Part shown: positions 166 through 52,800 of the stretch, in pieces | How positions within the stretch are numbered: the first letter of the stretch is position 1 | How the letters are laid out: every line of letters starts with the position of its first letter | Source of the DNA: Daphnia carinata | Lineage: Eukaryota > Arthropoda > Branchiopoda > Diplostraca > Daphniidae | DNA: 64,000 nt | Direction of reading: 5' to 3' | Assembly (NCBI RefSeq): GCF_022539665.2 | Contig: NC_081336.1 | Span: forward strand, 8,036,778-8,100,777 | The notes under the pieces: generated by a model | What the model was told of the DNA's origin: nothing | Database searches by the model: none | What the model saw: the letters and a program-made list of their open reading frames with translations, nothing else | Translations under genes and position numbers: made by a program

Positions 166-3100
166 TCACTGTTGGAGAAGAAGGAGGTGGTTTCCTTCGC
201 GCCGAGTCAGGCCTTTCAGCGCTGGCTTGCAATCCGATTTGTGCGTCGGCCAATCCGCTACTTGGCATTCCCTGTAGACATTGGTGGAAAAAAAAAAATA
301 AATCGATTCAATCAAGCAAACGGGAGCAAAAGAAAACGTTTTCTTTTTCCCGCCTTACTTGCTGCAATAATGCTGACATCGGCAACGTGAGCAACGATGT
401 TGGGCCTGTTTGTTGCACAGCGTGCAGGTCGAAGTGGCGGTCGTACACGTTCGGCGATTGATTTCAGTTGCTGATGATGTTGTTGGCACAGTTGCCTTAG
501 CAGTGCAATGGTTGAACGTTGTTTCCAGGTTTTCCGGATCATAAATAGCCGCCAACCTTGTTTTTTTTGTTTTTTTTTTCGTGAAAAATATATGCAAACG
601 GTACATCATTAGCAGCGAATGAAATACGATGACGGCAGAGATAGATTTAAAAATAGCTGAAAAAAAAAAATACCTTTGAACGGTTTCGGGTGATTCGTCA
701 CTGAGAAACTGTCGCTGTCCATCAAGGATGGCTGTCCATTTGACGGCCAGCTGCTTGAGCAAGAGCTGTCTCATTTCGGCCACAAGTTCTAGGATGAAAG
801 GCTTCTGGGTGGGGCCTGAATGACGCCAAACTTGATGGGCGCCGACAACCGAAAGCTGCACCAGCCACTGTTCAAAATCGGCCAGCGGTGGAATTTGATC
901 GATGACGTAATTATTCAAACTGGAACGCAACTGTTCATTGCGCAAAGCAAAAAAAAAAAAAAACATAAAGACGATGAGACCAATCAAAGATAAAGTTATT
1001 TACAAAAAAAAAATCGAAATCTAACTTTGAGCAATTGCTGGCAACGGAAGTCGTTGAGTTCGTACTTGCGCGGAGCTACGGGACTCATCAGAAGCGACAA
1101 AAGGAGGAGCCAGAGGTGAGCAGCTACTGGATGAAGTTGCCCTACGTTTGAGCCGGATGCTTCGTCGTCAGTGCATGGGCGCCATTGACCGTTATCGTAG
1201 ATTTCGGCTCTTTCGTCGTCGTCTCGACTTCCGCTGTCATCGCTGCCCATACGTCGTCGTTTTTCCTGCCGGATCCACGGTTGCTGGTCCATCAGCTGGA
1301 CCGCCAGCAGGGGCACGTCCGTCGTTGTAAGCATCCGGGATGTTACTATTTCAGACAAACTTGGCATCCAAAAATACACACATAGTATCAAACGTCATTA
1401 AAACAAAAAAATAGATACAATACAGTTAGTATATGTCGAGGAACTTGTTTTTTTATTATTATACTATCTCAAAAATATCCGCTTTCAAGTGAGATTTAGT
1501 GCGCCATTCCTTCATTCGATTGTCTGCAACGTCACGGAACCGGTGTTCAACGACTTGCGTAAAGAAAAAAAGAGTAAAAAAAAAAAAAGGGACGAAAGCA
1601 AAAATTTAAATTGATGTTATCAGTTATAGTGCATAGTAACAGGTTTTTGGAAATGCGTCCTTGTAGCGACATAAAAAGTTTGGGGAGGAAAGAAAAAGAA
1701 AAGGATGGCCCGTAAGAGGATCGAACTCATGACCTCCGCGTTATTAGCACGGCGCTCTAACCAACTGAGCTAACAGGCCGTTGCACTTGCCAACATCAAA
1801 CGCAGGTAAAAACAATCGCTAATCTTACAAAAATAAAGGATGAGATGGACTAGTTTTCAAGAAAAAAAAAAAAAAAGAAACTAAATTTAGAAAAGAAAAA
1901 AACAGAATTTTTAAATGATAAAGTAAAATAAAGTTCACCCGCCAACAGCATCTCGTATTCCCCAGCGGTCACCCATCCAGGTACTAACGAGACCCGGTCT
2001 AACTTGACTTCCGGGAGCTGACGAGACTGGCTAACGTTCTACATGGCTGTTGACAATGAGTCGTATAATTTAATTGAGCAATCTCAACCCACGGCAAAAA
2101 AAAAAAAAAACTAAATAAATACATGTTTTCTGTCTACATTTTTTTTTATGCGTCACGAGACCCAGACGCAGATTGGCACTGATAACAAATAGTCTGACGG
2201 ACAGACCATATTGATTCATAGTCCAGATTCTCGCGTCAGGGACACTCAAAGCTCGTTAAATCGCAATCAGATTGTCTTCATTATAAAAGCTTTATCTGAT
2301 TACTCATTAGTAGGGCGGCATTGTGTTGTTTCCACAACCCTTTCTCTGCATCGGACTTTGTCGGCTTTTCTTTCCCAAATGGCTACCTACTATGTCATTC
2401 ACACGCGATTTGTTTCGAAACGCAAAACACACACACACAAAAAAAAGGAAAAAAAAAAAAATATATACAGTAATGCTGGCGCCTTGTGTCTTTATAATAT
2501 TCACATGGGCGGCGTACTGAAAAACCCAGTGAATTTTATAATGACCCAAGTCGAGAGAAAATGACATAGAGAAAGAGGACTTCCCCGCTCATTATCCATG
2601 ATTTATTTTAAGTGGCGGATTATTACTTGTCTGCATGACCGGCGAGAAAGCGCAGAATGGCGATGCAGCGGATGGCGATGTTGGCCTCCAAGTGGCTGAC
2701 GTCCAGGTGCTTGAGGAGCGGGCTGTCGGCCAAGGACGGGTTCCTCGGCGCTGCCGTCGCGGCCGAACGCAAGAGCGTGCGGTGGCAATAGTCGATCAAG
2801 TCGACGATCGAGTCGCCCAGGGCTTCGCATGCGGCCGAATGGTACAGCAATAGCTCCAGCAAGCTAATGACTGCTCCTTCGTGGTACAGCTGCCAAAACA
2901 ATAAGGTAAAAGGGGAATTGTCTTGCATGTGAGAAAGGCTTTTGTCTCTTTCCTTTTCTTTTGCTCGTTTTACAAGGCTTTTGTTTTCGGACACACAGGC
3001 AATCATAAGAGTGAGGAGGCTCTCTTCGTTATTGTTATTCTATGACGACTCACCACCGTGTAAATCATCAGAGGTGAAAGGGAAGTCTCTGTCTTGAGCA

Positions 3101-4093
3101 AGTGAGGCAAGATTTCCTCCCTCCATATTTCAATCAGAATGGCATCGTAGACCAGCAGGGATACCTGTTTTGTGTGGTGACAAAGTGGGGAGGAAAAAAA
3201 GAAAAGAAGTGAAATCGTTATTATGTTTGTTGTTTGAATATGGCAAGCCATTCAAAAATGTTTCTCACCTAACACGTAAAGGGATTGATCATGCGAACAA
3301 GGAAAAACACACATTCATAATTATCTACAACTATACATCAATCGTTTCCTAGAAAACGCGGGGAGGTTTGTTGAAGAAAGAGACAGTGTGGGTCAGACGA
3401 TTGCAAAACAGGTCATTCAATTTCTTCCTTTAGCTATTCTTTTTTTTTTTTTTGCTAGGAAATCCGGCATATTATTTACGTCATCCGTCAGTGGGCGGGG
3501 TACTAAAGAAATAGTGGTGGAAAGAAAAAAAAAAGCCTCCCATTTCGTCATGTCTGACGGAGAAGAATTTGTTTAGACTGCGTTGACGTAGCGATTGCTG
3601 ATGTTTTGTCTGGTTTTTGTCTCAACAGCGACTGCACGAAGGGTGAGGTATATATATATATAATAACATTGTCAACAAACTAGGGAGCAGACGATGTAAT
3701 GAGGCAAATTTCTGCTATCGATCCAATAGGGCGCCATTAAGACCAATTTGACGGTGACATGAAATTGAGTTTAAAACGTTATCTGTTAAAATGTGTTGCA
3801 CATACTTTCTCTGCAACCATTAATTTAGAGTAGACAGTCTCTTCTTTGAGTTGAGCCGTCTGCGAGACAGCCTTGAGCGATAACTGGACCACTGCTTGAT
3901 GATGAGACAGCCATCTAATGAATAAAAGTGGGGCAATGAACGATACGAGTCCCTCATTATAATTCCGCACAAGCTCGAACGATATCAGAAACAATATATC
4001 TGTCTTTCTTCTTTTTCCCTACCTGTCAGATGCCAATTCGTCCAGTTGACAGAGTCGAGTCTGTTCTATCAGTTGATCTTCTTCGTAATCCAT
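166..4093 (-). CDS. Zmynd10: ZMYND10 (zinc finger MYND domain-containing protein 10)
   Basis: Eight exons give one frame of 483 codons (482 aa; human is about 440): 4093-4023, 3914-3806, 3164-3054, 2889-2627, 1359-1026, 930-674, 556-359 and 271-166. All introns are GT-AG. Recognised from blocks shared with human ZMYND10: the DxIVDLIDYCHRTL stretch in exon 4, the DVPLLAVQLMDQQPW stretch in exon 5, and a C-terminal MYND finger at about residues 426-462 with the full CxxC...CxxC...C...C...H...C ligand set, split across the last two exons. In animals ZMYND10 acts in the cytoplasm as a co-chaperone for preassembly of axonemal dynein arms. Here that would mean sensory or other motile cilia, or sperm; this is family knowledge. 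ATG 4093 is the first codon and matches the family's N-terminal helical region. Intron 4 hosts two Pol III genes. Confidence 0.9.
1706..1779 (-). tRNA. tRNA-Ile (AAT anticodon)
   Basis: A 74-base cloverleaf read on the minus strand. The acceptor stem GGCCTGT pairs with ACGGGCC (one G-T pair), followed by discriminator A. The D arm contains TAGCTCAGTTGG (A box), the anticodon loop CTAATAA gives anticodon AAT, and the T arm contains GTTCGATCC (B box). Runs of T directly downstream on the minus strand fit a Pol III terminator. No intron is seen. It lies inside intron 4 of ZMYND10 in the same orientation. It appears intact and functional. Confidence 0.95.
1941..2054 (-). rRNA. 5S rRNA, diverged variant or pseudogene
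   Basis: The minus strand reads as a 114-base 5S rRNA. Terminal strands GTCAACAGC and GCTGTTGGC pair as helix I. The 3' half keeps the highly conserved GTTAGTACCTGGATGGGTGACCG segment (internal control C box). The 5' half, including the A box equivalent, is clearly diverged from typical arthropod 5S, and the gene is several bases shorter than the usual 118-120. It may be a variant gene or a decaying copy. It sits about 160 bases upstream of the tRNA-Ile, same strand, in the same ZMYND10 intron. Confidence 0.7.
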
Positions 4094-5659
4094 AATAATT
4101 TAATGAGCAGCTGAATTTATAATGCCAATTGCGAAAGCCAATGCCAAAAGGAAACACAAACAACTGCGGAATTGATAAATTCTAGGATTTTGTTATGTCC
4201 TAGACCACATTCCGCAGACGACGCTGAAAGACTAAACGAATCTTAACGGTTAATAACGGGAGCATGGATCTAATAAAAGTTGAGCATCGATTCAACAAAC
4301 TTGTCCTGTCTCTATTTTATTTATTTTTGTTTTTTAATAAATGAGGAAAAACGTTACGTGAGAGCCATGGCAACGGCCAAGGAAGAAAAACGATCGATGA
4401 AAAAAGGCTGGGCACTTTGTAATCAAGGGATCAAAAAACCTTCCATGGAAACACACACAACGTTCGTACGTAGCCGTACGTGTTTAAATAATGTGTCTGA
4501 CTTGCATCCGGTGTTTATTATCACATGAACCATTACAGTACACACATATGTATATATTAGATATCTATAAATGTATGTACGCACACACACTTTTATTCGT
4601 CATTTGTTTTTCTTTTTTTCCTGACAAAAATTCTCGAAAAAAATTCAATCGTTTTTTTTTTTTGAATTTGCTGGGATTTCGCCATTGAAACAAAAAAGAA
4701 TTATTTTCTAAGTTTTTCTTTTCAAATTGAACATTTGTATTTTTTGTTTGGTTGTTGTTGTTTTTTTTTGTTTGTTTTTTTTTGTTTTTGTTTCGTGTAC
4801 AAAGAAGACAAAAAGGAGAGAGAAATTATGGAGAAAATAATAATAATAAAAGAAACTTTGATATCGGCTGCTGGTCTACACACACACAGGCACACACAAT
4901 TATACATTACTTTTGCCATAAATGTTGTGGTTGTTTTAGAAGTGATTTGAATTTTTTGTTTTGTTTTTGTTAAATTTTTCCTTGCGTTGGGGGGGGGGGG
5001 TTGAGGTTTCTTGTCTGTTTGGAAAGGAGGATAAATCTATTTTATAGTTAAAAGATTCAGATGAAGAGGGGGAGGGGGGTCAATTTGGGCATGGTACGGT
5101 GAAAAATTATAAGTAATAAATCACATTTCACGAGTGCGGATTGTATTATTATTATTCCGAATTTCTTTTTGCCTTTTTTTTTAAATTTTCCTTTTTTTTT
5201 TATTGATTTTCGGTGAGCGCAATAAGAAGTTTTGTTGAAGCAGAGACGAAAACAAGTAAGAGATTACCATGATTACAAATGGTAGGTGTAGAAGATGGGG
5301 GGACAGGCATGGCGGGTCCAATTCGAAGATGAGGGCGGGGTTGTTTTATTTATATAGGAAACATTTGTTTTAAAACAAAACACGGGTACGTGTGTGTGTA
5401 TACATTTTTCCGAAAAAAAAAAATTGGTATTGTTTTTTTTTTTTTCAACAACAACGGAACAAAAAATGAAATCGACACAAATTTTAAAATGGGGGAGGAC
5501 AGCAGAGAGATGGGAAGGGGGTAGGGGGAGTCGATATTTATCACAACAAATGATCCAGTAATTTTTTTTTTTTAGCGCAACAGCAGCAGCTCTCTGGATG
5601 GTCTCATCGAATTAAAAAACATGGGATTTAAAAAAAAAAAAAATTCAATTTCCAACATC

Positions 5660-41340: not shown

Positions 41341-42777
41341 ATGACGAATAAAAGAGATCATTTAAACAAAGTTAAAGGGCGTGACGCACCTGCCAAGAAG
41401 ACCCGAAAAAACCTTGCAACCATTGCTCAAACTCCACCGTTGGCCGGCGCGTCGTCGTCTGTCGTTTCTGTTCCAGAAGAGGCCACGGAAGTTGCTCAGG
41501 GATTGAGAAAAACCAATCATGGTATTAGTTTCCAACTGAAGCTTTTGATGCTCTTCTTGATACGAGGAATCCAAGCCGGCTACGCCTTCCGACTGGGTAC
41601 CGAAATGGAAGATCTCGGAGGTAAATTTGATGATATAATTTTCCAATATGAAGTCGACGATGGTGGCAAACGTCAAGTTAACAGATACCTGCAAGCAAAA
41701 CACAAACAAAACGGGTCGGTGAAAATAACGGCAGGACAGTTGTTCAACGAAACAGAAGGCGATTTCAGCCTGTTGAAATACTTCAGCTCGTATTGCGGCA
41801 TACTATCACGAGGGGATGACATCCAGGACTGCATTATAGGCACCAACATTGGCTTCAACTCGAACAATCTACTAAAAAAAGGAATTCAATTGATACGTGT
41901 CAGCACTGACGATGAAATGTTCAAGTTTAGAAGACACCGAGTTGCCCGTTATAAAATCAAAATCGATCTAGGTCATACCTTCTTGGGAAAATTGCGAGAA
42001 GTTAACTTTGAAGATCCTGCTACAAAGTCGAAAAGGAATGCAACCGATGACGAGATTGACGGTTTTTTAGACAAGCTCGTCTTTGTCGTCAACATGCCCA
42101 ACGAAGTCGAATTGGGAAAGATACTTACAGAAGAAGTCGGAAAATACTACGAAGTGAACGAAGCAGATTTCCAATCGGATTTCATTCTTAGAAACATGTG
42201 GGATTGGTTCAAGCTGAAAAAATCTGAATTTTTGACATCAGAACAAGGAGAAGAGATATTACAACAAGGCAAACAAAAATTAAATGCTTTACGTACAACG
42301 TCTGTTTCAATCAATTACCAAATGAAACTGCAAGAAACGATAGAATTCAATGCTGTTGCAATTGATGAAATGAAAGAAAAATTGAAGATGCTGTTGGATT
42401 CACCAAACAAAATCGAGCGAATCAAAACTGCATTCCCCAAACTCACTGCAGTTAAAGTAAGCGCAGCTCTAAAGAAAATCGAAAAATTCTTACCTTTCAC
42501 AGATAGCTACTTGATGTCATCATCCAAAGGCTTAAAAACAAATTTTACAAACGTCAAGGATGCATTAAAATTAGAAACTTGTCATCAACTTCTCGTTGTC
42601 GTTTGCGAAGACGGTCATTCGGAAAATGACAGTGACGAAAACTTAATCGGGGACAATCAACTAACAAATAAAAAAGTGATCATTTTATGTGGCAATGGCA
42701 TTGCAACACCAGACGATCTCAAGTTCACAGACTTAAGTCACAACTGCATGGAGAAATTACTTGACAAGCAAGTTTAG
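41341..42777 (+). CDS. Copy A, part 1: PD-(D/E)XK-like nuclease (DUF4297/Cap4-like) domain
   Basis: An open frame of 478 codons with no intron, ending at TAG 42775-42777. After a basic, Ser/Pro-rich leader (residues 1-55) comes the conserved core GISFQLKLLMLFLIRG, then GGKFDDIIF (D97-D98) and, about 20 residues on, YLQAKHKQ (Q118-x-K120), followed by GDFSLLKYFSSY. The spacing of the acidic pair and the QxK motif is that of PD-(D/E)XK nucleases of the DUF4297/Cap4 kind used as effectors in bacterial anti-phage systems. The remainder (about 160-478) is predicted helical. The next codons continue the same frame into the NACHT part, and copy C shows that the two parts were once joined. Assignment to the nuclease superfamily is by motif and recollection only; nuclease activity is untested. 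Confidence 0.7.
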   Translation: MTNKRDHLNKVKGRDAPAKKTRKNLATIAQTPPLAGASSSVVSVPEEATEVAQGLRKTNHGISFQLKLLMLFLIRGIQAGYAFRLGTEMEDLGGKFDDIIFQYEVDDGGKRQVNRYLQAKHKQNGSVKITAGQLFNETEGDFSLLKYFSSYCGILSRGDDIQDCIIGTNIGFNSNNLLKKGIQLIRVSTDDEMFKFRRHRVARYKIKIDLGHTFLGKLREVNFEDPATKSKRNATDDEIDGFLDKLVFVVNMPNEVELGKILTEEVGKYYEVNEADFQSDFILRNMWDWFKLKKSEFLTSEQGEEILQQGKQKLNALRTTSVSINYQMKLQETIEFNAVAIDEMKEKLKMLLDSPNKIERIKTAFPKLTAVKVSAALKKIEKFLPFTDSYLMSSSKGLKTNFTNVKDALKLETCHQLLVVVCEDGHSENDSDENLIGDNQLTNKKVIILCGNGIATPDDLKFTDLSHNCMEKLLDKQV

Positions 42778-45700
42778 TTTCAAGGAACAGTTCAAACTGT
42801 TCGTAATCTAATTGGAAAAGGTAACGGAGACGAGGTCATCGACGATAATTCCATAGAGGAATTGCTAGTAGGTAAGAAAGTTGTCAACATTCCTTTACAT
42901 GATTTCGTCCCACCATTTGACGAAGAACTCTACATCGAAAGAGACATCATCTTACCGTTCGACGATACGTTTTTTGACGAACTAGGAGTTGAAACCTACT
43001 GCACCCGAGACGATCTGCTGAAAAAGTTGAAGATCACCGTGCGAAACAACATCGAATGGTTCGTCGAAAACGAAGAAAAACAAGAGTTATGGGATAAAAT
43101 CAAAAAGATTTGGGGGAACAGACGTCAATCAGCTGACACTGCATGGCTGGCTAGCAGACTACTCGAAAAAGACTTAACACCGTCAGAAGAGTGGGAGAAT
43201 CGGGTAGTCGTTGTATCGGATATTGCCGGAACTGGTAAATCCACCTTGTTAACGAGCTACTACAAAAAAATGAGAAACGAGAAACCGGATAACTGGATTA
43301 TTAAGATGGATTTGGTTGATCATATTGGAGCCCTGCATCAGTTTAAATCGGACGAGATTGTCCAGCCGTTAGATGCAATCCAATTTTTTATCGCAAATAT
43401 ACCTAATGTGAGAGAAAGTTCCTTTGCCCAGTCTTTGCTGAGGCACAGGTTGAAGACGGGAGATAGGATTGTTCTCATGTTGGACGGATTTGACGAGATC
43501 GACAGCCAATGCCAGGCCAAATGCATTTCCTTGATCAAAGCAATCAGATTAACGAAATTTAATGCGCTTTACATAACTACCCGACCACACTCGAACGAAG
43601 CACTCCAAGATTCGTCGTTCCAGCTTGCCTATACCTTGAGAGATTTCAGTCAAGAAGATCAAATCAATTACCTTTCTGGATATTGGAAGAGACAATTGAA
43701 AATGGATGAGGATACAAAAGTAAGGTCCATTGCAACATCCATAGTTGATAGTTTGTCGAAAAGCTTAAAAGGCAACGAGAGATCTTTTATCGGAATCCCG
43801 TTACAGTGCCACATTGTCGCAGACTGCTTCGAGTCGCAAGTTGACGACATCATTCAAAACGGATGCAATTTAGAACCACTTCTTCAAGATATCGACTCCA
43901 ATTTAAAGCTGGACACTTTGTACAAGCGACTGTTCAAGAAAAAGCGTGAAATTTATCGAGAAGAAAAAGCCAAAGTGCAGCAAGTGCACAATCACATTCT
44001 TCATAAATCTGTAAAAGTTACAATGGAATGTTTAGAGATTTACCTAAGATACTTAGCTGTAAAGACAATCGTCACCGATCAGACGCACATCGATTGTCTT
44101 TTGGGTAAATCTATTGAGTCGGCAGCCACAATCGAACAACAACATAAAGAACGAGAAAAAGGTAGCGTTCGTTTTGGCTTGTTAACGCTTAACAGGAAAG
44201 GTGAATATCAATTTTTGCATGGAACCTACGCCGAGTACCTGATGGCCAATTACTTGTACGAAGGATTTCGTCTTGAAGAAGATCTTCGCAACAAGCTGCT
44301 GGATGAAACACGAACCAGAGAGTTGATCAGTTCAGAAATCTTGGTTGATTCGCAATACCAAGGTGTACAGCTTTTTATGGATTGCATGCTGCACGAGATA
44401 GTCAATCGTAAAGATTGGCATCTCATGTGGCGTGTGCAAACCGATCCAAGTTCAAATTTCAACAGTTTCCCCACTCAATTTACTTATTTCACAAAAGACT
44501 TGTATCGCGTGTGGATGCAGAAAGGTACTCCCAACGCTTTGGCGGTGTCTGTTGTCAGATACCACGCCAACATATTTGAATTGTTAAGCACATTTGCCGA
44601 TTTGGCGCTGGAAAAAGGACAAATTCTAGGACTGATGAACCCTCTTTTCTACCATTTGAAAGACAACCAGAGCAAGCAATTAGCCCAATTTTATCAAAAG
44701 CATAACTTGCTAACTTTCTTTTGGGAACGGAAATTGGATGGATTCCAGCGACTTCTTGGTTGGTACCAAGGCCTAAGCGCCTTAAACAAGCGCACTCAAG
44801 CGTATTACACAATTCTCATCGCAAAATCAATATATATGTACGCACCAAAACTGAACTTTCAAGACACCCAATCAGAAAAGGGCCAAAAAAAGCAGAAGGA
44901 ATTTTGTACCCAGTTACTTGAGTTCATGATTCAAAACCGGAGCACTGTGGAAAAACACATTACACGGGTACAGCAAAACACTGACGGCCTATTTTTCGAA
45001 TGGCATCTAGTGCTGAAATCTTTCCTTCGCTACGAGTACTACGACAGCCTTTTGGAACCGCTGGTGCGATTTATGTTACAAACAACTGATGACAGCGCGT
45101 TAGTGTTCATTCTTAACGAGACGTTTACAAAACACAAAGATGTTTTCGAACGTGCGAAAGTTGAGAGACTGTCTAATATCTTAATAGAAATGGAACGAAC
45201 TGATATTTTAGCTCGATTGCCACGGGAAATGATCGGTTTGGTCCGCGAGGTATTTCAATGCGTTTACAATTATCACCAACAATGTGACAGAAGGATATGG
45301 CTACCGGAATATGATTCGGACGTAATGACCCAGTTGCAAACAATGGTGTTTGCAGGTGAGACAACAGCTGTTCAACGTATACTTGAAAAAGTCTCTGAAG
45401 ATTTGAATTCCAACGATCGTGAAACGAAAAAAGTGGCGGATGAAATTGTTCATTACATGACGTACAGGTGCGGAACTAATCCTTACACGTTGGCTTACCG
45501 AGCAGCAGTTTGCGGCCAAGATGAAATGTTTCGTGTCATGCTGCGATTCGTGAACAACGTTGTTCCTAATGACAAGCTGCAAACTGCGTTAATCAGCAAA
45601 AATGGATTTCTTCACGGTGCCTTCTGGGACTCTATTTTATATGGGACAATTGAAACGTTACAGTTAATCATGAAGGCTGTTAAAGAAATTATGGGACCAG

Positions 45701-47379
45701 ACTCACAATTGAACCTCGTCAAATCCAAGCGTTTGGGAATTGCTCTTGGAGTGAGAGAGGTTCTTGTTGGATCGGAATTTGTTCCTGCATTCCCCAATTT
45801 CATTAATATCCTGGCTAAGACAATAATTGAGAATAATCCTGACGGTTACAAATACTTGCACGATTTGATCTTCCACGACGAAAGAAACATTATCTCACTG
45901 AAGTCTCTCGATGCACAACATCTTTCTGGGTTGATGTCTGTCAACGGACGCGAAAATTGGATGAAACGTTTCTTGGATGCCGCAATAAAAGTCCCCGACG
46001 TCTTTATCTCTTCACTAGAAGGCGGTCTTCTGGTCAAATTCAATAACGAAGAGCTTCGGTGTTTTCTGACAGCGATCACTTCAAATTTAGATCAGTCGGC
46101 AATATCGATTAGCGTATGGGCAAAGCTCGTCCGTGGCTTGTGCAAGAGCCCAGCATATGATAGTTGCGTACTTTGTTTTAATAAAATGTTCAAATACATC
46201 CCGGAAAAGTTAGGCGAACAGGCTATCGAAGAGCTCATCCTCATTGACAACGATTCCACGGTCGAATGGGTCGCACTACGAGGATACACAGAGCTTTTGG
46301 AATCCATGTTGGCTGGATTACCAACAGCAAAACAAGAGATGTTAAGACAACGTCTAGCGAATAACAAACACCAAGAGGGGTTCGAGAAATTCCTATCCGA
46401 TGTCCCGACAGGCGGGGACAGGCCTCAGTGTTATTCCAATACGGTCAAGGTAATACGGTATTGCCTAGAAAAAGGCAGCAAAGAACAATTGTCAAAATTT
46501 GCCAAATCTGCCACGCTCGTCTACGAAATCCAAGGGAAGAAATTTAGTATTTGGAATACCTTCAACGACACAATTTTTACCAATGAAGCTAGCTTTCATA
46601 GAGACATAAGGGAGATCATTGAATTTATGGCGGAGAAACTGGATGTAGATGACATTAAAATACTTATGCTTCACGACGACATAGGTAAAGGTTCCTTCTT
46701 TCTTCGACTTATCCTTTGGGAAGGGGTTCGCTTCGCCTGGGAAATGATAGACTGTTTACCAGCAAATGTGCGAGAGCCGTTCAACATCTATTTGAAAAAC
46801 AATGGACCTCAAATTATTCACAAAATGTTTTTCTCGAAAAGCACGGAAACGCTGATAGCAAAAATGCGCAAACGAGGTCGGCAGTATTCGGTAAATATTT
46901 TGCAGTTCTACCTGGATAATGGAAACCAAGCGCAATTAGCGCAATTTATGGAAACCATCACATCCATACGTTACGTTGGGAGCGCCAAACGTAGTTTGTG
47001 GGGTGCCGCAAGCCTACACATGTTGACAATCGACGACACTATCAACGAGTTTCTCGAATGTATTTCCCAGAAGCTGAGCAAGAAAGCAGTGAAAAAATTG
47101 GTGTTGCACAAAGACAACAATGAGCTAGACGTCGTCATGATTTACGCATTGCGGAAGAGTTGGCCGGAAAGATGCATTGGCATGTTTACCCATTTGGACG
47201 ATGAAGGTCGCGATAGAGTTCGTCATTTGGTCGCATCACTTCCATCCCATACGGATGTCGAAAGCTACGGTTATCAATTGAAAGAAAATTGGCACACAGT
47301 GGTTAATGATTCCCCTCTTCCTCCTTCATTTCAACAACAATGCAATGAAATTTGTGTACCACTTCCCCGTCGCATATGA
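42778..47379 (+). CDS. Copy A, part 2: NACHT NTPase with C-terminal helical repeats
   Basis: Open in the same frame as part 1 from the TAG to 47379; the first ATG is at 42862 (1505 codons). Numbered from that Met: Walker A GTGKST at 123-128, Walker B IVLMLDGFDE at 203-212, a sensor TTRP at 239-242, and a winged-helix-end motif FLHGTYAEYLMANYLY at about 452-467. All are typical of NACHT/STAND ATPases. The following ~1000 residues have no catalytic motif and consist of degenerate helical repeats, some ankyrin-like (NPYTLAYRAAVCGQDEMF). In STAND proteins such regions sense the ligand and the NTPase oligomerises; applying that here is inference. Single exon, unlike all neighbouring conserved genes. 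Expression as one protein would need the TAG to be read through. Confidence 0.8.
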   Translation, partial: FQGTVQTVRNLIGKGNGDEVIDDNSIEELLVGKKVVNIPLHDFVPPFDEELYIERDIILPFDDTFFDELGVETYCTRDDLLKKLKITVRNNIEWFVENEEKQELWDKIKKIWGNRRQSADTAWLASRLLEKDLTPSEEWENRVVVVSDIAGTGKSTLLTSYYKKMRNEKPDNWIIKMDLVDHIGALHQFKSDEIVQPLDAIQFFIANIPNVRESSFAQSLLRHRLKTGDRIVLMLDGFDEIDSQCQAKCISLIKAIRLTKFNALYITTRPHSNEALQDSSFQLAYTLRDFSQEDQINYLSGYWKRQLKMDEDTKVRSIATSIVDSLSKSLKGNERSFIGIPLQCHIVADCFESQVDDIIQNGCNLEPLLQDIDSNLKLDTLYKRLFKKKREIYREEKAKVQQVHNHILHKSVKVTMECLEIYLRYLAVKTIVTDQTHIDCLLGKSIESAATIEQQHKEREKGSVRFGLLTLNRKGEYQFLHGTYAEYLMANYLYEGFRLEEDLRNKLLDETRTRELISSEILVDSQYQGVQLFMDCMLHEIVNRKDWHLMWRVQTDPSSNFNSFPTQFTYFTKDLYRVWMQKGTPNALAVSVVRYHANIFELLSTFADLALEKGQILGLMNPLFYHLKDNQSKQLAQFYQKHNLLTFFWERKLDGFQRLLGWYQGLSALNKRTQAYYTILIAKSIYMYAPKLNFQDTQSEKGQKKQKEFCTQLLEFMIQNRSTVEKHITRVQQNTDGLFFEWHLVLKSFLRYEYYDSLLEPLVRFMLQTTDDSALVFILNETFTKHKDVFERAKVERLSNILIEMERTDILARLPREMIGLVREVFQCVYNYHQQCDRRIWLPEYDSDVMTQLQTMVFAGETTAVQRILEKVSEDLNSNDRETKKVADEIVHYMTYRCGTNPYTLAYRAAVCGQDEMFRVMLRFVNNVVPNDKLQTALISKNGFLHGAFWDSILYGTIETLQLIMKAVKEIMGPDSQLNLVKSKRLGIALGVREVLVGSEFVPAFPNFINILAKTIIENNPDGYKYLHDLIFHDERNIISLKSLDAQHLSGLMSVNGRENWMKRFLDAAIKVPDVFISSLEGGLLVKFNNEELRCFLTAITSNLDQSAISISVWAKLVRGLCKSPAYDSCVLCFNKMFKYIPEKLGEQAIEELILIDNDSTVEWVALRGYTELLESMLAGLPTAKQEMLRQRLANNKHQEGFEKFLSDVPTGGDRPQCYSNTVKVIRYCLEKGSKEQLSKFAKSATLVYEIQGKKFSIWNTFNDTIFTNEASFHRDIREIIEFMAEKLDVDDIKILMLHDDIGKGSFFLRLILWEGVRFAWEMIDCLPANVREPFNIYLKNNGPQIIHKMFFSKSTETLIAKMRKRGRQYSVNILQFYLDNGNQAQLAQFMETITSIRYVGSAKRSLWGAASLHMLTIDDTINEFLECISQKLSKKAVKKLVLHKDNNELDVVMIYALRKSWPERCIGMFTHLDDEGRDRVRHLVASLPSHTDVESYGYQLKENWHTVVNDSPLPPSFQQQCNEICVPLPRRI

Positions 47380-48383: not shown

Positions 48384-49823
48384 ATGACGAATAAAAGAGA
48401 TCATTCAAACCCAGATACAGGGCGCGGCTCACCTGCCAAGAATCCTAGGAAAAATCAAGCACCCAGTGCTCCGCCGCCGTTGTCGTTGGCCAGCACATCG
48501 TCGTCTGTCGCTTCTCCTCCAGAGGTGGCCCCGGTAGTTGCTCAGGGATTGAGAAAAACCAATCACGGTATCATTTTTCAATTGAAGCTTTTGATGCTCT
48601 TCTTGATACGAGGAATCCAGGCCGGCTACGCCTTCCACCTGGGCACCGAAATGGAACGTATCGGAGGTAAATTTGATGATATAATTTTCCGATATAAAGT
48701 CGATGGTGGCAAACGCGAAGTTAACAGATACCTACAAGCAAAACACAAACAAAACGAGTCGACGAAAATAACGGCAGGGCAGTTGTTCAACGTAACAGAA
48801 GGTGATTTCAGCCTCTTGAAATACTTCAGCTCTTATTGCGGCATACTATCACGAGGGGATAACATCCAGGATTGCATTATATGCACCAACATTGGCTTCA
48901 ACTCGAACAATCTACTAAAAAACGGAATTCAATTGATACGTGTCAGCACTGAAGATGAAATGTTCAAGTTTAGAACACACCCAGTTGCCCGTTACAGAAT
49001 CAAAATCGATTCAGGTCATACCTTTTTCGGAAAATTGCGAGAAGTTAACTTTGAAAATCCTGCTAATAGAAAGTTGAAAAGGAATGCAACCGATGACGAG
49101 ATTGACTGTTTCTTAGACAAGCTCGTCTTTGTCGTCAACATGCCCAACGAAGTCGAATTGGGAAAGATACTTACAGAAGAAGTCGGAAAATATTACGAAG
49201 TGAACGAAGCAGATTTCCAATCGGATTTCATTCTTAGAAACATGTTGGATTGGTTCAAAAAGAAAGAATCTAAATTTTTGACATCAGAAGATGGAGAGGA
49301 TATATTTCAAGAAGGCAAACAAAAATTAAATGCTTTACGTACGTCGTCTGTTTCAATCAATTACCAAATGAAACTGCAAGAAACGATAGAATTCAATGCT
49401 GTTGCAATTGATGAAATGAAAGAAAAATTGAAGATGCTGTTGGATTCACCAAACAAAATCGAGCGAATCAAAACTGCATTCCCCAAACTCACTGCAGTTA
49501 AAGTAAGCGCAGCTCTAAAGAAAATCGAAAAATTCTTACCTTTCACAGATAGCTACTTGATGTCATCATCCAAAGGCTTAAAAACAAATTTTACAAACGT
49601 CAAGGATGCATTAAAATTAGAAACTTGTCATCAACTTCTCGTTGTCGTTTGCGAAGACGGTCATTCGGAAAATGACAGTGACGAAAACTTAATCGGGGAC
49701 AATCAACTAACAAATAAAAAAGTGATCATTTTATGTGGCAATGGCATTGCAACACCAGACGATCTCAAGTTCACAGACTTAAGTCACAACTGCATGGAGA
49801 AATTACTTGACAAGCAAGTTTAG
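48384..49823 (+). CDS. Copy B, part 1: PD-(D/E)XK-like nuclease (DUF4297/Cap4-like) domain
   Basis: 479 codons, a tandem duplicate of 41341-42777 at +7043 bp, again intronless and again closed by TAG (49821-49823). The nuclease signature is preserved (GGKFDDIIF ... YLQAKHKQ ... GDFSLLKYFSSY). The first ~310 residues differ from copy A at roughly one position in ten; the last ~160 residues appear identical. The N-terminal leader differs most. The net length difference of one codon keeps the frame, so both copies have been coding since they split. Confidence 0.7.
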   Translation: MTNKRDHSNPDTGRGSPAKNPRKNQAPSAPPPLSLASTSSSVASPPEVAPVVAQGLRKTNHGIIFQLKLLMLFLIRGIQAGYAFHLGTEMERIGGKFDDIIFRYKVDGGKREVNRYLQAKHKQNESTKITAGQLFNVTEGDFSLLKYFSSYCGILSRGDNIQDCIICTNIGFNSNNLLKNGIQLIRVSTEDEMFKFRTHPVARYRIKIDSGHTFFGKLREVNFENPANRKLKRNATDDEIDCFLDKLVFVVNMPNEVELGKILTEEVGKYYEVNEADFQSDFILRNMLDWFKKKESKFLTSEDGEDIFQEGKQKLNALRTSSVSINYQMKLQETIEFNAVAIDEMKEKLKMLLDSPNKIERIKTAFPKLTAVKVSAALKKIEKFLPFTDSYLMSSSKGLKTNFTNVKDALKLETCHQLLVVVCEDGHSENDSDENLIGDNQLTNKKVIILCGNGIATPDDLKFTDLSHNCMEKLLDKQV

Positions 49824-52800
49824 TTTCAAGGAACAGTTCAAACTGTTCGTAATCTAATTGGAAAAGGTAACGGAGACGAGGTCATCGACGATAATTCCAT
49901 AGAGGAATTGCTAGTAGGTAAGAAAGTTGTCAACATTCCTTTACATGATTTCGTCCCACCATTTGACGAAGAACTCTACATCGAAAGAGACATCATCTTA
50001 CCGTTCGACGATACGTTTTTTGACGAACTAGGAGTTGAAACCTACTGCACCAGAGATGATCTGCTGAAAAAGTTGAAGATCACCGTGCGAAACAACATCG
50101 AATGGTTCGTCGAAAACGAAGAAAAACAAGAGTTATGGGATAAAATCAAACAAATTTGGAGGAACAGACGCCAATCAGCTGACACTGCATGGCTGGCTAG
50201 CAGACTACCCGAAAAAGACTTAACACTGTCAGAAGAGTGGGAGAATCGGGTAGTCGTTGTATCGGATATTGCTGGAACTGGTAAATCCACCTTGTTAACG
50301 AACTACTACAGAAAAATGAGAAACGAGAAACCGGATAACTGGATTATCAAGATGGATTTAGTTGATCATATTGGAGCCCTGCACCAGTTTAAATCGGACG
50401 AGGTTGATCAGCAGTTAGATGCAATCAAATTTTTTATCGCAAATATACCTAATGTGAGAGAGAGTTCCTTTGCCCAGTCTTTGCTGAGGCACAGGTTGAA
50501 GACGGGAGATAGGATTGTTCTCATGTTGGACGGATTTGACGAGATCGACAGCCAATGCCAGGCCAAATGCATTTCCTTGATCAAAGCAATCAGATTAACG
50601 AAATTTAATGCACTTTACATAACTACCCGACCACACTCGAACGAAGCACTCCAAGATTCGTCGTTCCAGCTTGCCTATACTTTGAGAGATTTCAGTCAAG
50701 AAGATCAAATCAATTACCTTTCTGGATATTGGAAGAGACAATTGAAAATGGATGAGGATACAAAAGTAAGGTTCATTGCAACATCCATAGTTGATAGTTT
50801 GTCGAAAAGCTTAAAGGGCAAGGAGAGATCTTTTATCGGAATCCCGTTACAGTGCCACATTGTAGCAGACTGCTTCGAGTCGCAAGTTGACGACATCATT
50901 CAAAACGGATGCAATTTAGAACCACTTCTTCAAGATATCGACTCCAGTTTAAACCTGGACACGTTATACAAGCGACTGTTCAAGAAAAAGCGTGAAATTT
51001 ATCGAGAAGAAAAAGCCAAAGTGCAGCAAGTGGACAATCACATTCTTCATAATTCTCTAGAAGTTCAAATGGAATGTTTAGAGATTTACCTAAGATACTT
51101 GGCTGTAAAGACAATCGTCTCCGATCAGACGCACATTGATTGTCTTTTGGGTAAATCTATTGAGTCGGCAGCCACAATCGAACAACAACATAAAGAACGA
51201 GAAGAAGGTAGCGTTTGTTTTGGCTTGTTAACGCTTAACAGGAAAGGTGAATATCAATTTTTGCATGGAACCTACGCCGAGTACCTGATGGCCAATTACC
51301 TGTACGGAGGATTTCGTCTTGAAGAAGATCTTCGCAACAAGCTGCTGGATGAAAAACGAACCAGAGAGTTGATCGGTTCAGAAATCTTGGTTGGTTTGCA
51401 ATACCAAGGTGTACAGCTTTTTATGGATTGCATGCTGCATGAGATAGTCAATCGTAAAGAATGGCATCTCATGTGGCGTGTGCAAACCGATCCAAGTTCA
51501 AATTCCAATTTCCCCACTCAATTCACTGATTTCACAAAAGAATTGTATAGCGTGTGCATACAAAAACGTATTAACAATGCTTTGGCGGTGTCTGTTGAAC
51601 GATACCACGCCAACATATTTGAATTGTTATGCACATTTGCCGATTTGACGCTTTCAAAAAAACAAATTCTACAACTGATGATGCCTCTTTTCAGCAACGT
51701 GGATTGGGCAATGCAATGGACGCCAGCTAAGCGTAACTTGCTAGCTTTCTTTTTGGAAAGGAAATTGGATGGATTCCATCGACTTCTTGCTTGGCATCAA
51801 GAAGTCTTTGGCTTTCAAAAAAACGACTATTACACAAGTCTCATCGCAAAAGCAATATATGTGTACGCACCGTACCTCAACCTTGAAGACCCCCAATCAG
51901 AAAAGGGGCCAAAAACGCAGAAAGAATTTTGTTCCCAATTACTTGAGTTCATGATTCAAAACCGGAGCACTGTGGAAAAATACATTACACGGTGGCCCAA
52001 ACAATATCGCAGCCTATTTGCCGACTGGCACCTAGTGCTGAAATCTTTTCTTCGCTACGAATACTACGACAGTCTTTTGGAACCGGTCGTGCGACTTGTT
52101 TTACAAACAACTGATGACAGCACGTTAGTGTACGTTGTTGAAGAGACGTTTACAAATCACAAAGATGTTTTCGAACGTGCGGCGGTTGAGAGACTGTCTA
52201 ATGTCTTAATAGAAATGGAAAGAACTGATATTTTAGCTCGATTACCACGGGAAATGATCGGTTTGGCACCCGGGCCATTTCAATGCGTTTACAATTATCA
52301 CCAACAATGTGACAGAAGGATATGGCTACCTGAATATGATTCGGACGTGATGACCCAGTTGCAAACAATGGTGTTTGCAGATGAGACAACAGCTGTTGAA
52401 TGTATACTTGAAAAAGTCTCTGAAGATTTGAATTCCAACGATCGTGAAACGAAAAAAGTGGCGGAGGAAATTGTTCATTACATGACGTTCAGATGCGGAA
52501 CTAATCCTTACACGTTAGCTTACCGAGCAGCAGTTTTCGGCCAAGATGACATGTTTCGTGTCATGCTACGATTCGTGAACAGAGTTCTTCCTAATGACAA
52601 GCTGCAAACTGCGTTAATCAGCAAAAATGGATTTCTTCACGGTGCCTTCTGGGACTCTATTTTATATGGGAAAATTGAAATGTTACAGTTAATCATGAAG
52701 GCTGTTAAAGAAATTATGGGACCAGACTCACAATTGAACCTCGTCAAATCCAAGCGTTTGGGAATTGTTTTTGGAGTGGGAGAGGTTGTTGTTGGATCGG

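Follow-up and report, generated by a model that had tools for sequence, protein, structure and literature searches.

A Daphnia gene family joining a predicted nuclease domain to a NACHT switch and helical repeats: candidate NLR-like receptors, with interrupted copies

Does an animal genome encode receptors on the working plan of bacterial anti-phage proteins, with a nuclease where other animal receptors carry a death-fold adaptor? The question is raised by a 64,000-nucleotide stretch of the 108 Mb Daphnia carinata genome (C6:8036778-8100777, hereafter the window), in which the initial annotation described a gene of this kind, present twice in tandem. Copy 1 (41341-47379, + strand) consists of a 478-amino-acid (aa) ATG frame (part 1), a TAG and a further 1533 aa in the same frame (part 2). 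Copy 2 (48384-54410, + strand) repeats this layout, with an ATG frame of 478-479 aa, a TAG and a same-frame continuation of 1,528-1,533 aa; it is 89% identical to copy 1 in part 1 and 88% in part 2, confirming the tandem duplication. The annotation missed the shared TAG and a third copy, a nuclease domain with its linker that reads through the TAG position. Computation establishes how the genes are laid out, that the nuclease core is conserved, which folds are predicted and that the family has expanded. On balance, the evidence leans towards the window holding two interrupted members and one truncated member of a nuclear Daphnia STAND family with the order nuclease, NACHT and helical repeats, that is, an NLR with a nuclease output rather than a death-fold adaptor.

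The N-terminal nuclease-like domain (N-domain) is marked by very few fixed residues. In an alignment of 54 sequences (the three window copies, the paralogue P0001 and 50 proteins from a first search), eight columns were invariant, D98, Q118 and K120 included. A second search, with 14 distant members as queries, contributed the best 120 of 285 matches. The N-domain was recognized at E up to 1e-3 in 174 of 177 proteins (not in P0021, P0026 or P0117), and among the 115 columns of these 174 that are at least 80% filled, exactly three are invariant, D98, Q118 and K120, the next reaching 99.4%. The motif residues are thus conserved across the family, as had been anticipated, with one correction: of the catalytic pair originally proposed, D97/K120, the lysine holds (174/174) while D97 (162/174) gives way to D98 (174/174). 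The proteins were collected with N-domain profiles and the conservation is therefore partly built in; such gathering does not explain why the invariant three should be the predicted catalytic residues.

A structure model and fold search of part 1 predicted a restriction-endonuclease fold with the D and QxK in place, which strongly supports assigning the N-domain, at the level of models, to the fold of the Cap4, DUF4297 and Avs3 effectors. The initial annotation had set this fold as a check beforehand, and had named a different fold or unconserved motif residues as its refutation; neither was encountered, because the predicted fold is that of an endonuclease and the catalytic residues are conserved. 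When a 19-sequence profile was run with hmmsearch against PDB sequences, three matches were returned up to E 10, and the top two were Cap4 (7yib, E 0.0027; 7yia, E 0.061), with FDD aligned on FDD and QAK on QIK. According to its entry title, 7yia is the K74A mutant of Cap4, without the lysine that aligns with K120. The third match, at E 0.4, is to a phage inner core/tail protein and is probably fortuitous. A Pfam scan of part 1 returned 0 families up to E 1, the curated score of PF14130 not being reached, and profile-profile comparison with PF14130 from 69 sequences gave an alignment in register, with Prob 1.2 (P 0.042) in one direction and Prob 0.5 (P 0.12) in the other; from three sequences it gave Prob 0.4. 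The family differs from the Cap4/DUF4297 effectors of HerA-DUF4297, Lamassu (LmuA) and Hachiman in having no PF14130 or PADLOC match here (PADLOC models: 0 families for parts 1 and 2 at E up to 1). To our knowledge, and partly from entry titles, the Cap4/DUF4297 partners SAVED, HerA and LmuB are not NACHTs.

A shared fold is no proof of activity, and at one locus the lysine is replaced. Both points count against a cutting enzyme and would suit a receptor with a non-catalytic head, whose nuclease-like domain would bind nucleic acid or promote assembly, the output passing through partners. We consider this improbable, since the only invariant columns are the three predicted catalytic residues, and a pure binding domain is unlikely to fix exactly these.

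Downstream of the FDD/QAKH core, the NACHT motifs GTGKST, DGFDE and TTRP lie where they had been reported, and PF05729 matches part 2 with 34.4 bits (E 2.5e-8), above its cut-off of 26.7 bits. P0001 and P0012 also exceed this cut-off; P0041 and P0043 fall below it (23.6 and 23.9 bits). The window pieces were modelled separately, part 2 up to residue 1150, and from about residue 290 to that point the model is helical save for a few short strands, which bears out the long helical region claimed. In the fold search, the NACHT and the region after it align with animal NLRs over model residues 8-642, a region that by its alignment range corresponds to WHD and HD2 following the NACHT as in animal NLRs, and the model places this portion nearer to them than to Avs4 (13.5 vs 9.8). 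With NLRC4, NOD2 and NLRP3 the Daphnia family shares the NACHT and the next region, its expansion and a divergent C-terminus. It differs from them in carrying a predicted nuclease fold in place of an N-terminal CARD, PYD or death fold, in its partly ankyrin-like helical repeats, and in the absence of any LRR (leucine-rich repeat) family from the five proteins scanned (part 2, P0001, P0012, P0041 and P0043); Ank_2 exceeded its cut-off in the paralogues P0001 and P0012, not in part 2.

Bacterial Avs proteins are ordered as a nuclease, a STAND NTPase and a long helical sensor. P0001 has this order in one chain, and the window copies have it with a TAG in between. Avs3 aligns over residues 55-478 (342 residues, root-mean-square deviation 18.4, a high value that probably stems from differing domain placement). 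The Avs architecture originally claimed survives as an order of effector, NACHT and helical repeats. In other respects the family differs: the NTPase is predicted to be closer to animal NLRs, no PADLOC model matched at E up to 1, and the Daphnia genes are nuclear and animal. The family would be Avs-like by its working plan, not an Avs member by the models tested, and NLR-like by its switch.

We found at least 24 loci with a NACHT stretch in the D. carinata genome, grouped from 52 part 2 matches; the count is a lower bound because 30 of 47 candidates were scored. Twenty lie at C6:8.95-9.36 Mb, two are the window copies, and one each is on C1 and C5. The N-domain occurs in 16 frames or loci. Within the sequence examined, seven of them continue in frame to a NACHT Walker A, and these seven are all located at C6:9.03-9.36 Mb. 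The uninterrupted paralogue P0001 (2,128 aa from its ATG) combines N-domain, NACHT and ankyrin matches in one chain, and internal stops occur in other members, for example on C1 and at C6:9155875. Comparison of 15 Daphnia-clade proteins (105 pairs; 91 in the case of the leader) shows identity to be highest in the N-domain (62%), followed by the NACHT (54%), the region after it (51%) and the linker and pre-NACHT region (45-46%). The C-terminal thirds stand lower, at 34-37% with an aligned fraction down to 0.63, and only the leader (25%) is below them. This pattern would be expected if the effector and switch are conserved while the sensor diverges; relaxed constraint would also produce it. Between copies 1 and 2, identity dips to 79-84% at 44535-45132 and near 46133, other steps after 41538 being 89-100% alike; the dips mark local divergence hot spots in the presumed sensor.

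If these proteins are receptors, the resting protein would be closed, and its variable C-terminal repeats would bind a foreign or danger ligand. The NACHT would then exchange nucleotide and the proteins would assemble, bringing the N-terminal nuclease domains together and activating them to cut DNA, either foreign DNA or the cell's own, the latter leading to cell death. Avs and Cap4-type effectors act by such assembly-activated DNA cutting, which in Avs follows the recognition of conserved phage proteins.

The shared TAG bears on the window copies themselves. It lies in a tract free of differences between copies 1 and 2 (42335 to 42934, at least 600 bp), while the flanking 200-base steps are 92.5% and 97% alike. 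The most economical explanation is gene conversion or late copying. The closest relatives among those compared, P0043 and P0041 of D. magna (81% and 79% identical to copy 1 in part 1, 62% and 47% in part 2), read through this position, as do P0001 and copy 3, and the TAG is not present in the seven paralogous frames that reach the NACHT. The ratio of nonsynonymous to synonymous substitution rates (dN/dS) between copies 1 and 2 is 0.49 in part 1 and 0.61 in part 2, and 0.32, 0.83 and 0.53 in successive thirds of part 2, the first of which contains the NACHT. The pattern exceeds chance, because 2,011 sense codons are interrupted by a single stop in each of two copies, the dN/dS values are 0.49 and 0.61, and the N-domain recurs at 16 loci. 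Both halves show constraint; were the stop recent, this would say little about their present state, and we therefore treat the window copies apart from the family.

The interruption speaks against working receptors at these two loci, so that uninterrupted paralogues, some 1 Mb distant, are the likelier working receptors. The window copies may now yield at most the nuclease half, both halves through read-through or re-initiation, or nothing. For these copies only, we hold it an even question whether they are dead or dying, the stop having arisen and been spread by gene conversion to leave pseudogenes beside a working cluster. The identical TAG within the difference-free tract fits such a history, as do the uninterrupted D. 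magna relatives and copy 3, after which the part 2 search, with 30 of 47 candidates scored, lists no NACHT match, and inspection of 58301-63500 in its three + frames turned up no NACHT motif. It sits less well with reading frames that, over about 2,000 codons in each copy, are free of any further stop or frameshift, and with the dN/dS of 0.32 in the NACHT third; neither point is decisive, as a recent stop looks identical. A functional TAG, by which one gene would produce both a receptor half and a short nuclease-linker protein through read-through or separate initiation, would account for a stop common to both copies with both halves open and constrained; its absence from the D. magna relatives and from the NACHT-reaching paralogues makes this very improbable.

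We next turn to the distribution of the N-domain. The best 120 of 285 matches include arthropods from several orders (Planococcus, Neodiprion, Onthophagus, Hypothenemus, Contarinia, Hermetia, Anopheles, Rhynocoris, Adelges, the millipede Chamberlinius and others), many metagenome proteins, and symbionts: Wolbachia in 11 rows, of which 10 have the domain, Mesenet in two and Rickettsiella in one. Its partners vary, with NACHT or NB-ARC and with ankyrin, TPR or other helical repeats. Among these matches, Wolbachia, Mesenet and Rickettsiella carry the domain within large proteins with ankyrin or NACHT families, and some symbiont relatives bear OTU or latrotoxin-C, as we take their Pfam names to mean. 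Two short peptide patterns, run against the genomes of 84,980 bacterial and archaeal species, matched 123 times; at least three loci were confirmed, a floor because the patterns are narrow, in metagenome-assembled genomes (MAGs) named Midichloriaceae, Mesenet and Chlamydiae, the last matching over 39 residues at a contig end. By profile, 22 of 262 genomes of the Midichloriaceae MAG's order carry the domain (two, G001 and G002, known beforehand), compared to one of 398 drawn from its phylum, the centre genome G001 itself.

In a tree of 174 rows and 127 columns (too few columns for many forks, with unsettled bootstrap values and a root only for drawing), a single branch (100/97) separates all 33 named Daphnia rows, from six species, and 17 unnamed rows from the rest. 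The named bacterial rows, 13 in number, do not form one group: the tree shows seven label changes, at least three of which are forced by well-supported branches. One Wolbachia row adjoins the beetle Brassicogethes (100/97); another two Wolbachia rows, together with two unnamed ones, are placed next to the bug Rhynocoris (100/96). Long branches lead to several arthropod rows. Transfer between symbionts and arthropods may have run in either direction.

Parts of this family have been described before. Tox-REase-8, as defined by Zhang et al. (2012, PMC3482391) in the portion of the text considered here, has the motifs GxxxQ, DD and QxK with ankyrin and TPR partners, is reported from Wolbachia, Amoebophilus, Daphnia, mosquitoes, ants, beetles and Trichoplax, and is presented as an endosymbiont toxin moved into animals; the word NACHT is absent from that portion. 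Copy 1 carries these motifs as HGISFQ, KFDD and QAKHK, conserved in relatives, and the N-domain fits Tox-REase-8 by the published list; motifs and repeat partners are common to both, and the Daphnia family differs in that the domain heads an NLR-like protein. In the sections considered of Bordenstein (2016, PMC5062602), the N-terminus of gwv_1093 (137-aa alignment) is common to mosquitoes, ants, beetles, a mealybug and a bee. The same sections report that (pro)phage WO and arthropods including Daphnia have NACHT homologues in common, assign no nuclease, and argue from parsimony for transfer from arthropod to phage WO while allowing the reverse. Judging by its distribution, the gwv_1093 N-terminus may be the Daphnia N-domain. 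Because Tox-REase-8 and the 2016 NACHT homologues were already published, the term 'undescribed' in the initial annotation was too strong.

The chief rival is that the Daphnia genes derive from Wolbachia-like effectors of the Tox-REase-8 type and are kept for a secreted or reproductive toxin, a selfish element or a relic, rather than as ligand-gated immune receptors. The presence of the domain in symbiont ankyrin and NACHT proteins makes it a serious one, and the published view (PMC3482391), the scattered bacterial rows and the counts in the Midichloriaceae order against its phylum likewise weigh against a receptor. We still consider a captured toxin unlikely: the Daphnia rows form one group across six species, the part after the nuclease is predicted to fold most like animal NLRs, the parsimony in PMC5062602 runs from arthropod to phage, and the expansion, the constraint on the NACHT third and the C-terminal divergence fit receptors.

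A wider proposal is tentative, its chances falling somewhat short of even. Arthropods may possess an NLR class with a Cap4/Avs-type DNA-cutting effector that kills or cleanses infected cells without caspase or gasdermin, expanded and varied in Daphnia, swapping its switch (NACHT, NB-ARC) and repeats (ankyrin, TPR) between arthropods, wired at one Daphnia locus to an eIF2-alpha kinase, and with a nuclease exchanged repeatedly with Wolbachia-type bacteria. In the parts considered, a 2013 paper has a single NACHT tree of 42 proteins from Daphnia and mouse (PMC3584848), a 2024 survey states that arthropod NLRs have no N-terminal effector domain and leaves Arthropoda out of the phyla in which an inflammasome may exist (PMC11508797), and PMC11342252 and PMC8195603 do not describe the Daphnia family. 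If the proposal is true, arthropods would gain a direct-killing receptor, with a Cap4/Avs-like nuclease in the effector place that PMC11508797 calls missing; a bacterial antiviral design would be placed in an animal; and animal 'toxin' nucleases and the NACHT proteins common to phage WO would share one frame. It could be tested in Daphnia magna, where close relatives are uninterrupted.

Table 1. Positions, within the window, of the three copies' features
Feature	Position	Strand	Remark
Copy 1 part 1	41341..42774	+	478 aa
Copy 1 disordered leader, residues 1-56	41341..41508	+	predicted local distance difference test (pLDDT) <50
Copy 1 predicted Cap4/DUF4297-like PD-(D/E)XK nuclease domain, Tox-REase-8 motifs	41509..41976	+	residues 57-212, limits set by us
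HGISFQ	41518..41535	+	
KFDD with predicted metal-binding D98	41623..41634	+	second D in 174/174 proteins
QAKHK with Q118 and predicted catalytic K120	41692..41706	+	Q and K in 174/174
Copy 1 linker, helical then alpha/beta part, residues 213-478	41977..42774	+	
In-frame TAG dividing copy 1	42775..42777	+	read through in D. magna P0041 and P0043, P0001 and copy 3
Copy 1 part 2	42778..47376	+	1533 aa
Copy 1 NACHT NTPase	43198..43692	+	PF05729 E 2.5e-8; fold searches
GTGKST	43228..43245	+	
LDGFDE	43480..43497	+	
TTRP	43576..43587	+	
Copy 1 region matching animal NLRs, presumably HD1-WHD-HD2	43693..44703	+	alignment range
Copy 1 long helical region, presumed sensor	44704..47376	+	model helical to part 2 residue 1150
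Copy 2 nuclease domain and linker	48384..49820	+	ends at TAG 49821-49823; D/Q/K retained
Copy 2 NACHT and helical region	49824..54410	+	no further stop before the end
Copy 3 nuclease domain and linker	56518..58392	+	uninterrupted at TAG position; NACHT match not found after

Several loci and relatives show the domain in other company. At L040 (G000:C6:2779500-2789400), three successive frames within 1198-4569 match the protein kinase family PF00069, and the main kinase frame is nearest to eIF2-alpha kinases (PERK at 2.8e-24, then GCN2 and HRI, with PKR lower). The frame at 2815-4569 opens, by eye, with the kinase's last segment, where Pfam gives no match, and continues into the N-domain and linker without a NACHT, keeping the D and QIK; we infer a spliced kinase-nuclease fusion. 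A tandem second copy at C6:2787064, viewed from its last kinase-like segment onward, has QAN instead. PF02338, which we take to be the OTU-type protease family, accompanies the nuclease domain in P0141, P0151 and the weevil protein P0164, and residues 1-90 of P0061 read as an OTU-type protease. The annotated D. sinensis protein P0002 (2645 aa) joins PF16494, PF03160 and PF01699, presumably sodium/calcium-exchanger families, to the receptor, and is probably a gene-model fusion.

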